This document shows positions 3,238 to 6,744 of a DNA stretch of 20,475 bases, piece after piece. Within the stretch, counting starts at the first letter, position 1. Each line of letters opens with the position of its first letter. The DNA comes from a virus: the IMG/VR virus record IMGVR_UViG_3300029319_000664, positions 1-20,475 of that record; one strand, written 5' to 3'. A program made the translations under genes and the position numbers. Under the pieces are notes generated by a model. It worked only from the letters and a program-made list of their open reading frames with translations, searched no databases and was not told the origin of the DNA.

Positions 3238-4350
3238 TTATTCAGTGTCAATATTATAGAACTCGTCAGCCTTGCCTTCTTTCTTATCAAAGCGCATAAT
3301 AATTTCTTCATCCATAATCTGCAAAATTCTTGCTCTGAATTTTTCATTCTGAAGCTTTTCTTTCCACTTGGATGCTTGGAACTTTTCTGTTGTTCCATCC
3401 TCGTAAACAAGATTATACCATGCCCCAGCCTGGCCGAGGTTTGGAGACGACTTTACAGCTTCAAACCAACTCTCTTCGTCTTGAATGCCAACATCACCAC
3501 CCCATAGGATCTTGAATGTGCACTGACGGCCTTCAGTTCCAAAGCGACTTTTCTTAAGTGTAACTTTAACTTCAGAGCCAACACGGAATCCATTGTCGTC
3601 AACAATAAATGAAGCTTTAGCTTTTCTCTTAGTTAACCAAATACGTAAAGAGTAAGCGTAATGCATAGCCTTTCCACCAGGAGTGACATAAGGCGTTGTC
3701 ATCGCTTCTGCAACATTGCTTGTGATGTTTGTTTTAAGCTGATTCAAAACCAAGAAAGTAGACTTCGAAGCAGCAATCGGCACTGTAAGCTTTGACATGC
3801 CTTTTGCTAAAATCCTAGGTTTAACTGCCATAGATGACTGAGGGTTGAAGTCACCCTCAACATCACTAATCGAAGGAGTCAATGCTAAGCTGTCCCAAAT
3901 AAAAAGCATTCTGTTATCGTTAGAGCCAAGCAATTCTTCAATAGTTTCTAACAACCACTCGACACTCATGGGGTTAAAGTACAGTAATTTATCTGTATCT
4001 ACGCCTGCGCTTTCTAGAAACGCGGAATCAATTGCCGCCTCTGAATCGAAATACACAACATCAATACCCATTTTTTGAGCATTCGCAGCGATCTGTGCAG
4101 CCATAAAAGATTTACCTGAGCCTTCAAGCCCAGCGATCTCAACAATCTTGCCTGTTGGAATGCCAGCTAATTTACCACGACAAATCGTACTGTCCAACCA
4201 TCGTGAGCCTGTTGGAATCCAATCTGTAACATCTGTCGGATTTTCTTTTGAAAGATCAAAGCCAACTTGCATGCCAGCTTTTTTATTGATAAGATTTCTC
4301 ATCTCATCAATGCTTAATTTACCTAATTTTCTTGCTTGTTTTCTAGCCAT
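3238..4350 (-). CDS. uvsX: UvsX/RecA-type recombinase
   Basis: This is an ATP-dependent strand-exchange protein for recombination-dependent replication and repair, 370 residues against 391 for T4 UvsX. The RecA core shows Walker A GLEGSGKS (74-81), the catalytic glutamate in FDSEAAID (Glu104), Walker B MLFIWDS (148-154) and the L2-proximal VLNQLKTNI motif (201-209, with Asn203/Gln204). A TTPYVTPGGKAMHYAYSLRIWL segment (218-239) is characteristic of RecA/UvsX proteins. The C-terminus is rich in acidic residues. The start is ATG with AGGGGA 4 nt upstream, and no better upstream codon exists. Its leader carries one copy of the repeated hairpin element, so expression may be controlled by read-through or by a binding factor. 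It lies in the same cluster as the ssDNA-binding protein, its expected partner. Confidence 0.95.
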   Translation of the reverse strand: MARKQARKLGKLSIDEMRNLINKKAGMQVGFDLSKENPTDVTDWIPTGSRWLDSTICRGKLAGIPTGKIVEIAGLEGSGKSFMAAQIAANAQKMGIDVVYFDSEAAIDSAFLESAGVDTDKLLYFNPMSVEWLLETIEELLGSNDNRMLFIWDSLALTPSISDVEGDFNPQSSMAVKPRILAKGMSKLTVPIAASKSTFLVLNQLKTNITSNVAEAMTTPYVTPGGKAMHYAYSLRIWLTKRKAKASFIVDDNGFRVGSEVKVTLKKSRFGTEGRQCTFKILWGGDVGIQDEESWFEAVKSSPNLGQAGAWYNLVYEDGTTEKFQASKWKEKLQNEKFRARILQIMDEEIIMRFDKKEGKADEFYNIDTE

Positions 4351-4365
4351 GATTCCCCTCTATGT

Positions 4366-4405
4366 AAAAAAATAAGACACCTGTAGACCCGTGCCTTCCT
4401 GCGGT
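4366..4405 (-). promoter_or_regulatory. Repeated leader hairpin, copy A (before uvsX); terminator-like
   Basis: On the minus strand the order is ACCGCAGG, stem AAGGCAC (4397-4391), loop GGGTCTACAG, stem GTGTCTT (4380-4374), then ATTTTTTT. The stem has 7 pairs including one G-U. It lies between the lipoprotein stop (4416) and the uvsX ribosome binding site. The stem plus T-run resembles an intrinsic terminator, but the conserved loop and 5' flank shared with copies B and C suggest an additional recognition role. Confidence 0.7.
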
Positions 4406-4415
4406 ATTAGCTAAC

Positions 4416-4769
4416 TTAGTCAGTTGTGACGTTGTTAGTAACACCAGTCGTGGGGGTCTCAACAGTGCCTGTAGTGGCTGTCCCAGTTGTGGTGGTTGTT
4501 GCAGTTGTGTCTGTCACAGCATTTGTGTTGCCACAAGTTGTACAGTCACATCCACAGTTACAATTCTCATTAGAATTGGTGGTTACAATACCAGTAGCGG
4601 TATTATCAGTTGCAGTGGTACCAACTGTGGTAGTAGTGGTGTTAACAGACGCTGGAGTCGTCGCTTCAACCGTTGTACCAGTAGTTGTTACAGTATTAGC
4701 TGGTGGGTTGCAGCCCAACAGCAAGACACAAGACGCCATAATGGCAAAGACACTTTTAATTAAAATCAT
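4416..4769 (-). CDS. Thr-rich lipoprotein with a CxCxCxCxxC cluster
   Basis: This 117-residue protein begins with a short charged end (MILIKS), a hydrophobic stretch and a lipobox LLGC (17-20), so it should be cleaved and lipidated at Cys20 and anchored in a membrane. The mature part is dominated by Thr, Ala, Val and Asn, as expected for an unstructured or surface-exposed linker. A central cluster has Cys70, 72, 74, 76 and 79 (NCNCGCDCTTCG), which could bind metal or form disulphides. The start is ATG with AAAAGG about 9 nt upstream, and a repeated hairpin precedes it. Known phage lipoproteins such as Llp of phage T5 block the receptor against superinfection. A similar role is possible here but unproven. 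The low-complexity Thr codons also leave a long open plus-strand frame (4426-4803) that is only a shadow. Confidence 0.7.
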   Translation of the reverse strand: MILIKSVFAIMASCVLLLGCNPPANTVTTTGTTVEATTPASVNTTTTTVGTTATDNTATGIVTTNSNENCNCGCDCTTCGNTNAVTDTTATTTTTGTATTGTVETPTTGVTNNVTTD

Positions 4770-4784
4770 AATATTAATCCTTTT

Positions 4785-4822
4785 AAAAATAAGGCATCCA
4801 TAAACCCATGCCTACCTGTGGT
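4785..4822 (-). promoter_or_regulatory. Repeated leader hairpin, copy B (before the lipoprotein gene)
   Basis: The minus strand reads ACCACAGG, one T, stem AGGCAT (4813-4808), loop GGGTTTATGG, stem ATGCCT (4797-4792), then TATTTTT. Relative to copies A and C the closing pair C-G has become T-A on both sides (CAC/GTG to CAT/ATG), a compensatory change. It sits between the Hc1-like gene stop (4830) and the AAAAGG ribosome binding site of the lipoprotein gene. Confidence 0.7.
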
Positions 4823-4829
4823 GATAAAA

Positions 4830-5018
4830 TTATCGCTCGTTTTTTGTTGTTTGAACGTGTTGCCTAACAGAATGAGCAGTATTTTTAATCTCTTGCATAG
4901 CTTTTCTGATGCGTGTTCCAGCAGCAGAATTATTACTATTATAAAATTTATCATAATCAGTGCGAACTGATTTCAAAAGACTAATCATATCATCTAAAGT
5001 ACTTGGCATACTATCCAT
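4830..5018 (-). CDS. Small basic Hc1 / histone H1-like protein
   Basis: This 62-residue helical protein contains DYDKFYNSNNSAAGTRIRK, followed by MQEIKNTAHSVRQHVQ. This matches the signature of bacterial Hc1/histone H1-like proteins (a linker with N-x-AAG-x-R-x-RK, then a helix with alternating Lys/Arg and hydrophobics), which bind DNA and compact nucleoids. The known family often has a Lys/Ala-rich tail after this core. Here the protein ends in TTKNER and no such tail is present. The start is ATG with AAGGAG 6-7 nt upstream. It lies between the ssDNA-binding protein and the lipoprotein gene, with a conserved hairpin on each side. Likely roles are organising phage or host DNA, but function is inferred from family resemblance only. 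Confidence 0.66.
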   Translation of the reverse strand: MDSMPSTLDDMISLLKSVRTDYDKFYNSNNSAAGTRIRKAMQEIKNTAHSVRQHVQTTKNER

Positions 5019-5032
5019 TATTTTCTCCTTTT

Positions 5033-5074
5033 AAAAAAAGTGAGGCACCTGTAAACCCGTGCCTCCCTGCGGTT
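5033..5074 (-). promoter_or_regulatory. Repeated leader hairpin, copy C (after the ssDNA-binding protein gene, before the Hc1-like gene)
   Basis: The minus strand reads AACCGCAGG, stem GAGGCAC (5065-5059), loop GGGTTTACAG, stem GTGCCTC (5048-5042), A, then C-free TTTTTTT (5039-5033) after one intervening base. All seven stem pairs are Watson-Crick. It is the strongest terminator-like copy and begins 7 nt after the ssb stop. AACC in the 5' flank could pair with GGTT in the loop, which would form a pseudoknot. Confidence 0.72.
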
Positions 5075-5080
5075 GGGGGA

Positions 5081-5830
5081 TTAAGAAGCGAGAAGCTCCT
5101 GAAATTTATTATCAATGGAGGAAGATTCAGAATCATAACGGGTAGATTCTTTAGAAGTCTCCTCGGCATCATCCTCCCCCAGGAGGAACTCATCAAGCAT
5201 AGCTTGAATCTCTTGCGGCGTCTTCCTCGCCGACTCAAAGACTGCACCTGGATCTGGCACAGAGTCTAGCCACTTAGCTGACTGCTCTTCATCTTTTGAA
5301 AGAACAGACGGCTTCCGGCGCGGGGTAATAGTAGTTTGTGGGAACTGTGCCCCTGGAGGCTTGCCATAATTAATGACAAGATCAGTGCCCTCATCTACAT
5401 CAGTAATATCTCCATACTCAGGATTGAGCACAAGATTCAGAAGCTCTTTGTAAGCCATTTTTCCATAGCCCCAAAGACGAACACCTTTGTCCTCCTCACC
5501 TCGAACAATCACAGGCGAAAAGAAACGTTGACGAGCAGATAGACTCTTGGCCATCTTAACTGACTCATCAGTGCCCTCTCGATAGAGCTGACGCACAAAG
5601 TCATCCAGTGGATCGTCCTCGCCAAAGTTCTTCTTTGGACTAAGAAATCCAGCATTCTTACCCAGATTATAGTGAAACCAATAATCCTTAAACGGATCAC
5701 CGTCTGGGGTTGGAACAATACGGATAACAGTCTCGCCATCTTCAGGCTTCCAGAATGTATCTTTATTTCCGTTACCACGATTTTCTAAGGCATCGCGTTT
5801 AGCCTTCATCTTCTCCATATCAATAGCCAT
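5081..5830 (-). CDS. Single-stranded DNA-binding protein, T4 gp32-like, without zinc cysteines
   Basis: This protein of 249 residues (T4 gp32 has 301) would coat ssDNA at the fork and cooperate with UvsX and the polymerase. The N-terminus is basic (MEKMKAKRDAL), followed by the OB-fold region with FWKPEDGETVIRIVP (26-40), a typical gp32 opening. Where gp32 relatives have a CP..FG..CP.C zinc loop, this protein has SPKKNFGEDDPLDD: Ser64, Asp73 and Asp76 replace the cysteines, and the whole protein has no cysteine. The C-terminal 50 residues are acidic and Ser-rich (LLGEDDAEETSKE), matching the partner-binding tail of gp32. The start is ATG with AGGAG 7 nt upstream. A different hairpin lies in its leader and a repeated hairpin follows its stop. 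Confidence 0.88.
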   Translation of the reverse strand: MAIDMEKMKAKRDALENRGNGNKDTFWKPEDGETVIRIVPTPDGDPFKDYWFHYNLGKNAGFLSPKKNFGEDDPLDDFVRQLYREGTDESVKMAKSLSARQRFFSPVIVRGEEDKGVRLWGYGKMAYKELLNLVLNPEYGDITDVDEGTDLVINYGKPPGAQFPQTTITPRRKPSVLSKDEEQSAKWLDSVPDPGAVFESARKTPQEIQAMLDEFLLGEDDAEETSKESTRYDSESSSIDNKFQELLAS

Positions 5831-5860
5831 TATAAACTCCTTTTTGCTTTAAGCTAAAGT

Positions 5861-5884
5861 CCAGCCAGCAAATCTTCTGGCTGG
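5861..5884 (-). terminator. Stem-loop in the leader of the ssDNA-binding protein gene
   Basis: The minus strand forms CCAGCCAG (5884-5877), an 8-nt loop AAGATTTG and CTGGCTGG (5868-5861), a perfect 8-bp stem. Only a weak T-rich tail follows (ACTTTAGCTT), so it may be a poor terminator, an mRNA-stabilising structure or a control site for the ssb mRNA. T4 gp32 represses its own translation through a structure in its leader, which makes this position suggestive. The stem sequence is unrelated to the three repeated hairpins. Confidence 0.45.
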
Positions 5885-5922
5885 CTACAATTAAGATAAG
5901 AACTCCAAAAAGAGGGTAAACA

Positions 5923-6744
5923 TTATTCTCCTTGAATCAAACTACTGACTTGGAGAGTGTAGACATAATCTACTTCATAGTTTGTAGGGAAAATACCAAA
6001 CGAGCATCTAACTTTATCTTCAGATTTTGCTTTTATGCTGTCAGTGATTTTATTATACAAACCTTTCTCCTCATCCATTGTTTTTTTACTTATCGCATAA
6101 TAATATAACTTCTCTCTTGCCATAAGTAAAGGATAAAATAATTTATCTTCATTATCAGCCACAATACCAATTGTGTTTATTCGCGCAGTCACGGGCAAAT
6201 CAGAGAATGTGCTCAAATCAGAATGAGAATTCTTAAACACGTTAATCATATGATAGGTGCTAACAATTGTTTGGTTGATGGTGTCCCAGTATTCAGCTAC
6301 TGAAACATCGCCTACCACGCTGCTAACAGATAAATTATCAATCATGGTTACGCTACGTAGGAGCGCAGACCTAGCATACTGCTGCAAGACTTGGCTGGTT
6401 AGGCGCTCTCTCATTGCGGCACGTTCACTTAAAATATCAATATCAGGTTTAATATATAACACATCGATATTTTTATTTTTTAACTTTTCTAGCATCCTCA
6501 AGCATAAGCCAGAACTCTTTCCTGCCCCACAAACTATGAAAATAACGTCTTTTTCTCTACTTCTAATATCAAACTTAAGCTTGCATCGCTCATAATTCTC
6601 ATGAGATGCGCAGTTTGGTATTGGCTTGTAGTTCACATAATCATTGTCTGCAACATCATAACTGTAAATTTTGTATTGTGGGTATTGTGAAAAATTCTGC
6701 GCTATTTTACATGCCACTGTGCCCAGGCCAATTACAACACTCAT
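5923..6744 (-). CDS. Possible divergent tubulin/FtsZ-fold GTPase (unknown function)
   Basis: This protein has 273 residues and no confident family. It starts with a Rossmann-like MSVVIGLGTVACKIAQNF (1-18), comparable in place to the first nucleotide loop of FtsZ. DVIFIVCGAGKSSGLCLRML (66-85) follows; its GAGKSSG resembles the G-x-G-T-G-[ST]-G tubulin signature and is followed by helix and strand, IDVLYIKPD. Next come a conserved-looking Glu/Arg-rich helix (SERAAMRERL) and MIDNLSV (134-140), the place where FtsZ has an 'I-D-N' element. Together this follows the order of the FtsZ GTPase domain, but an unrelated Rossmann-type P-loop protein is not excluded. ATGA overlap with the polymerase gene shows co-translation. 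SD AGGAG lies upstream of the ATG. There are no membrane segments. Confidence 0.5.
   Translation of the reverse strand: MSVVIGLGTVACKIAQNFSQYPQYKIYSYDVADNDYVNYKPIPNCASHENYERCKLKFDIRSREKDVIFIVCGAGKSSGLCLRMLEKLKNKNIDVLYIKPDIDILSERAAMRERLTSQVLQQYARSALLRSVTMIDNLSVSSVVGDVSVAEYWDTINQTIVSTYHMINVFKNSHSDLSTFSDLPVTARINTIGIVADNEDKLFYPLLMAREKLYYYAISKKTMDEEKGLYNKITDSIKAKSEDKVRCSFGIFPTNYEVDYVYTLQVSSLIQGE

Follow-up and report, generated by a model that had tools for sequence, protein, structure and literature searches.

Genes and repeated RNA elements between ssb and uvsX

The window, i.e. the whole stretch of DNA that was analysed, comprises the 20,475 bases of a virus record. It contains genes for T4-type replication and structural proteins, and everything around the element described here lies on the minus strand. 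Inspection of this region gave the following features, in which S1 and S2 denote helices and L1 and L3 loops:

3238–4350, minus strand: gene of the uvsX recombinase, 370 aa (PHROG 97, E 7e-57)
4374–4405, minus strand: element copy A, in the gap between the lipoprotein gene and uvsX; S2 of 7 bp including one G-U, S1 ACC:GGU
4416–4769, minus strand: open reading frame of a Thr-rich putative lipoprotein, 117 aa, a cargo gene
4791–4822, minus strand: element copy B, in the gap between the Hc1-like gene and the lipoprotein gene; S2 of 6 bp plus a U-U mismatch, S1 ACC:GGU
4830–5018, minus strand: Hc1 (histone H1-like) cargo gene, 62 aa (Pfam PF07432, E 5.4e-18)
5033–5041, minus strand: tract 3' of copy C, AC followed by U7, running into the SD AAAAGGAG, as read from the sequence
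5042–5073, minus strand: element copy C, an H-type pseudoknot in the gap between ssb and the Hc1-like gene; ACC(S1)-GCAGG(L1)-GAGGCAC(S2)-G-GGU(S1)-UUACAG(L3)-GUGCCUC(S2)
5081–5830, minus strand: gene of the T4-type ssb (gp32-like), 249 aa (PHROG 1192, E 1.5e-26)
5855–5887, minus strand: second conserved RNA, RNA X, in the ssb leader; AG, an 8-bp covarying stem, loop RARATTNG and ACTWTA
5923–6744, minus strand: gene before ssb, encoding a 273-aa protein

A sequence-only reading had described three copies of one hairpin in this region. It was found that they are real, lie on the minus strand and agree in position with that description: a 20-nt IUPAC pattern with at most three mismatches had exactly three matches in the window (A, B and C), compared with 0.02 expected from shuffles. 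Copies C, A and B scored 68.6, 64.3 and 57.5 bits with covariance model R1, values that are partly given by construction since two source-alignment rows of the model are window copies; the next-best score elsewhere in the window was 6.2 bits. The flank ACC[G/A]CAGG, the loop GGGTyTAyrG and the U tract were all as described, the stem of 6–7 bp corresponded to S2 (7 bp in copy C), and the compensatory stem change, CAC/GTG versus CAT/ATG, was real. As for the gene names, profile matches bore out Hc1, UvsX and the T4-type ssb, and the lipoprotein was recognizable only by an N-terminal signal and an LLGC motif. Homologues of the lipoprotein gene occupy the same slot in other phages (protein cluster cl5), and uvsX is the first fixed gene past the element array.

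The spacers from the upstream stop codons to the elements were 7, 7 and 10 nt (the ssb stop lies 7 nt before copy C) and the gaps from the elements to the next start codons were 23, 21 and 23 nt, so that each element fills the entire intergenic gap. Single-sequence folding gave a z of –2.6 for copy C, while copies B and A were unremarkable (–0.4 and –0.8); the support for the element is therefore comparative, not thermodynamic.

RNA X was present in 102 of 115 distinct ssb leaders, in which 71 distinct stems were counted, showing that its stem sequence is almost free and covaries. It is often followed by a small covarying 3' hairpin and then the SD, and in 48 of the 102 leaders a sigma70-like promoter lies upstream of it. 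No Rfam match was obtained for RNA X, which is likely the translational operator of ssb. The 273-aa protein encoded before ssb had no significant sequence match in Pfam, PHROG or PDB. Its predicted structure (pLDDT 95) showed a tubulin/FtsZ/TubZ fold, with a Foldseek E of 6e-12 to FtsZ and TM values up to ∼0.7; homologues were found in 136 loci, and the GTP-binding G-box is degenerate (GSGxISG).

Pseudoknot fold and covariation

As judged from the aligned sequences, the element is a 32-nt H-type pseudoknot composed of S1 (NCC:GGN', 3–4 bp), L1 (RCAGG), S2 (7 bp), one spacer base and L3, which ends in AYAG. Among 83 distinct elements with a 10-nt loop, the outer pair of S1 was AU in 53, CG in 9, GC in 7, GU in 4, UG in 3 and UA in 2, and was unpaired in 5. 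The middle pair was CG in 77 and GC in 6 of the same elements and was never unpaired, i.e. the flip was always compensated. Over both helices, 98.7% of 830 cells were paired and 93 double changes were counted versus 24 in shuffles, where it should be considered that the collection search required the S2 helix and not S1, so that the S2 counts lean towards S2, and that sequences of one collection are related, so that the counts are not independent events. The covariation score was 0.39 versus 0.18 in shuffles (0/500 shuffles), and sliding the pairing partner by 1–3 columns destroyed the pairing in the 83-element set. Covariation of position 7 with the loop was also examined and was left as weak.

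Less exposed to such relatedness is a natural double-mutant test, in which IMG/VR was scanned with equally specific patterns for the compensated middle pair G5:C21 and for the uncompensated combinations G5:G21 and C5:C21. The raw matches were near chance in all three scans (42, 41 and 37). With the S2 helix required, the compensated scan contained 7 true elements and 1 chance match, and the two uncompensated scans of IMG/VR contained no true element and one chance GC-rich match each. The pseudoknot between ACC of the flank and GGU of the loop, which had been suggested from the window, is thus supported by compensatory S1 changes among natural variants.

In 24 of the 83 elements one S2 pair was a G-U wobble, which would be an A-C mismatch on the opposite strand. 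These sense-strand wobbles and the constant co-direction with the genes indicate that RNA, not DNA, is under selection. L3 tolerated insertions, even an apparent hairpin (L009, L039, L253).

No family of Rfam 15 reached its gathering score for the element, which is a structured RNA family outside Rfam. Sub-threshold matches to the DUF2815 and freshwater-2 RNAs of Rfam (20 and 18 bits versus cut-offs of 41 and 50) covered mainly the T tract and the SD, and left the knot, loops and stem unmatched. The STAXI motif (RF01728) is a repeated pseudoknot RNA near single-stranded-DNA-binding protein genes (PMC2864571). The element is also a repeated pseudoknot beside ssb, but STAXI has a 153-position model, frequent UUCG tetraloops and a home in Enterobacteriales, and the RF01728 model had no match in the window.

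Distribution, position and cargo

A covariance-model search beyond the window, as the sequence-only reading had proposed, found more copies in IMG/VR relatives. Since related phages retain the knot together with the flank and the two loops, and not just a stem and a T-run, the three hairpins represent one conserved RNA structure beyond a set of terminators. A 26-nt pattern scan of IMG/VR gave at least 120 stretches, and the element was present in well over 100 contigs; the pattern-fetched loci over-represent the class with ACC in S1. When loci were retrieved purely on the basis of ssb homology, so as not to select for the element, 71 of the 80 had at least one covariance-model match. Whole contigs of 74–205 kb carried 0 to 3 copies each, and 18 further records, most of them picked for holding the element, carried 1 to 3.

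Nearly all copies were located within the ssb-uvsX region. Rare copies were observed 3' of an Hsp20 gene that is well away from ssb (L234) and 3' of the gene of a MoxR-like ATPase (L235). Others came from phages in which no T4-type ssb could be recognised: one separates an unknown gene from a DNA polymerase gene (L246), and one lies upstream of a bacterial-type SSB (L282). One GTDB contig also contained a copy, which is probably phage DNA inside a binned genome. In isolate phages no match to the element was found by blastn, for which the 38-nt query is a weak test, and the closest isolate uvsX match was only 32% identical; the carriers, which lack a close isolate, are large uncultivated phages.

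A same-strand stop codon was found within 40 nt before 191 copies, which begin 1–30 nt, mostly 5–13 nt, after it. The next start codon lay within 45 nt in 128 cases, mostly at 20–30 nt, and some elements were separated from the following gene by 50–200 nt or more. The gene order can be written as ssb-[E]-(cargo-[E])n-uvsX, where E is the element and n ranges from 0 to at least 2; the simplest order, ssb-[E]-uvsX, was found in L010, L042, L057, L184 and L185. The proteins encoded downstream of the element fell into 56 clusters, one of which is uvsX. The cargo types included FKBP isomerase, cold-shock (CspA-like) protein, thioredoxin, ClpP, Hsp20, Hc1 and Thr-/acid-rich lipoproteins, and, by eye, ParB-like proteins of 300–450 aa, often encoded 70–80 nt past the element. 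From this gene content, the ssb-uvsX slot is taken to be a hot spot of accessory genes. The copies within one genome differ and are therefore not fresh duplicates. As side observations, DNA adenine methylase-like cargo was also seen by eye in the slot, and a tRNA-Met gene (L094:7481–7556, minus strand) starts 7 nt past an element copy inside the cargo region.

T4-type phages have PeSL cassettes (Comeau, Arbiol and Krisch 2014, a reference given in PMC5931544), which reportedly are short intergenic stem-loop modules that bound exchangeable genes. The element likewise lies in intergenic gaps and, judged by the order and variety of the cargo, bounds exchangeable genes. In contrast to the stem-loop plus early promoter of PeSL, most of its copies have no promoter, its structure is a covarying pseudoknot whose loops are fixed, and it occurs mostly at a single locus. 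It is doubtful that the role of the element is mainly recombinational, with short dispersed PeSL-like homologies serving cargo exchange between ssb and uvsX and with expression secondary. Such a role would suit the varied cargo (∼55 downstream clusters besides uvsX, n from 0 to at least 2), the copies followed by a promoter in the PeSL order and the occasional copies at other loci. However, pure homology would not preserve compensatory pairs, G-U wobbles and strand polarity, and the similarity of elements barely tracked the flanking family (mean distance of 4.0 with the same upstream gene versus 4.3 with neither gene shared).

Terminator-like features and the proposed attenuation

The element resembles intrinsic (Rho-independent) terminators in having a GC-rich stem, S2, just past the stop codon and a U-rich tract; the stem was there in every copy, and the U tract was enriched. 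In the tail after S2, U accounted for 65–74% at positions 2–5, compared with 28.5% genome-wide, and G for ∼1%. At least five U in seven positions were found in 49–56% of the copies versus 13% for random leader composition, with 57% in the ACC class and 26% in the CCC class. At most three U in any 7-nt window were found in 21% of the ACC-class and 41% of the CCC-class copies, about a quarter overall. The knot is retained regardless in these U-poor copies and thus outlives the U tract. Unlike intrinsic terminators, the element has a conserved single-stranded flank, conserved loops and a pseudoknot, and lacks a good U tract in about a quarter of its copies.

It had been considered that the hairpins might be ordinary intrinsic terminators copied by duplication. 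This is very improbable, even though the GC stem and U tract would agree with it and relatives without the element often have a plain hairpin and U-tract terminator after ssb, in the same slot (L166, L178, L186, L194, L038). The flank, the loops and a covarying S1 are conserved over hundreds of copies, many of them without a U tract; S1 and fixed loops would be superfluous for a plain terminator; and the compensatory S1 changes largely refute the idea. At other strong terminators of three near-complete genomes, flank-loop pairing was not above chance, indicating that the pseudoknot is not a genome-wide terminator type.

Candidate pseudoknots of other sequence with U tracts, for example GACCG..CGGTC and AGGG..CCCT, were noticed after ssb in distant relatives (L014, L034, L037, L055, L068, L100, L108, L111). 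Flank shuffles gave no individual support to those of L014, L034, L037, L055, L068 and L111 (best 28/500), and these post-ssb pseudoknots, suggestive by eye and individually non-significant in shuffles, are not claimed here.

Promoter-like sequences followed 8 of 41 long-gap copies, and the U tract was strong in 7 of the 8. Clear TTGACA-like/TATAAT-like promoters were seen in the gaps past the elements of L041, L086, L097, L109, L167 and others. The promoters past the elements suggest transcription of the host sigma70 type. In 149 copies with a close start codon there was no room for a promoter. Two other roles were rejected: a promoter inside the element, because the –35-like loop sequence TTTACA is not conserved (GGGGTTACAG, GGGATTACAG) and a –10 box could not be fitted into the gap, and stop-codon read-through or frameshifting stimulated by the knot, because the spacing between stop codon and element was not fixed modulo 3 (68/71/52).

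The reading that we prefer, with a probability of roughly 0.5, is that the element is a pseudoknotted intercistronic attenuator or terminator, which would partition the expression of ssb from that of its neighbours and mark cargo boundaries. Judged by its sequence features, its effect is probably to throttle the transcription that continues into the following gene. The element would act in cis within the transcript of the ssb-to-uvsX operon: as the polymerase leaves ssb or a cargo gene, the GC-rich S2 would form just behind it, and S2 together with the U-rich, G-free tract would end a share of the transcripts, leaving more ssb mRNA than mRNA of the next gene. The knot and the invariant loop bases might give an unusually robust structure or a docking site for a phage or host factor that sets read-through; it is plausible that a factor binds, and the gp32-like protein is a candidate. 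Each gene inserted at the hot spot would bring or gain a copy and neighbours would be dosed separately, which could also provide the insulation of neighbouring genes that had been ascribed to the hairpins; the copies may in addition leave short homologies for cargo exchange. With the start codon ∼20–30 nt further on and no promoter room, strong termination would silence uvsX. Together with the poor U tracts in about a quarter of the copies and the retention of the knot, this favours an attenuator that lowers transcription and does not stop it. The L094 copy 7 nt before the tRNA-Met gene fits a role at the transcript level.

In the T4 gene 32 operator, a 7-bp hairpin has a loop that base-pairs with the 5' flank. 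The element is likewise an H-type pseudoknot formed by a 5' flank and a hairpin loop, but its place is downstream of ssb, ahead of other genes, and not the leader of ssb itself, and it differs in its 3-bp S1, longer L1, near-invariant loops and repetition up to several times. The operator of T4, T2 and RB69, which belongs to the T4-type ssb gene, consists of a pseudoknot, an A/U-rich unstructured stretch and the RBS (PMC535899, PMC3014915); because this topology and layout are shared, binding by the phage ssb stays a serious, if unlikely, rival to attenuation. The ssb would nucleate on the knot, spread over the A/U-rich tract and cover the next SD, and excess ssb would repress translation of uvsX and cargo. 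This would be in line with the G-free tail tract, the tight spacing from element to start codon, the tie to the ssb locus and the L282 copy upstream of a bacterial-type SSB in an unrelated phage. However, diverged operators are still accepted by T4 gp32 (PMC535899), in contrast to the near-invariance of L1 and L3 in the element. In addition, T4 has its operator upstream of gene 32, a place where the present phages carry the different RNA X. Copies also occur after Hsp20 far from ssb (L234), at distances of 50–200 nt or more to the following gene, and before a tRNA gene (L094), where the element cannot be a translational leader.

The element is comparable in size to small pseudoknot riboswitches. 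Near-invariance of L1 and L3 in so small a pseudoknot could point to a cis-regulator of read-through that senses a ligand or factor, either in the manner of a riboswitch or by binding a phage protein different from ssb. We consider this quite improbable, since the cargo genes have no pathway in common, the element has no Rfam relative and L3 tolerates insertions. It is tentatively conceivable that the element represents a new class of phage cis-regulatory RNA, a mini-pseudoknot whose invariant loops would be read by a phage protein (possibly ssb) or by RNA polymerase and which would gate the read-through that links ssb to the genes of recombination and cargo. Such an RNA would have spread with cargo cassettes and into the replication modules of unrelated phages.

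The element is a second pseudoknot family tied to T4-type ssb genes; it is unrelated in sequence to the first, occurs in well over a hundred loci and comes with natural compensatory mutants. It offers a concrete target for studying how phages dose ssb against recombinase, and it also lets one ask how cargo enters a fixed operon without upsetting its expression.
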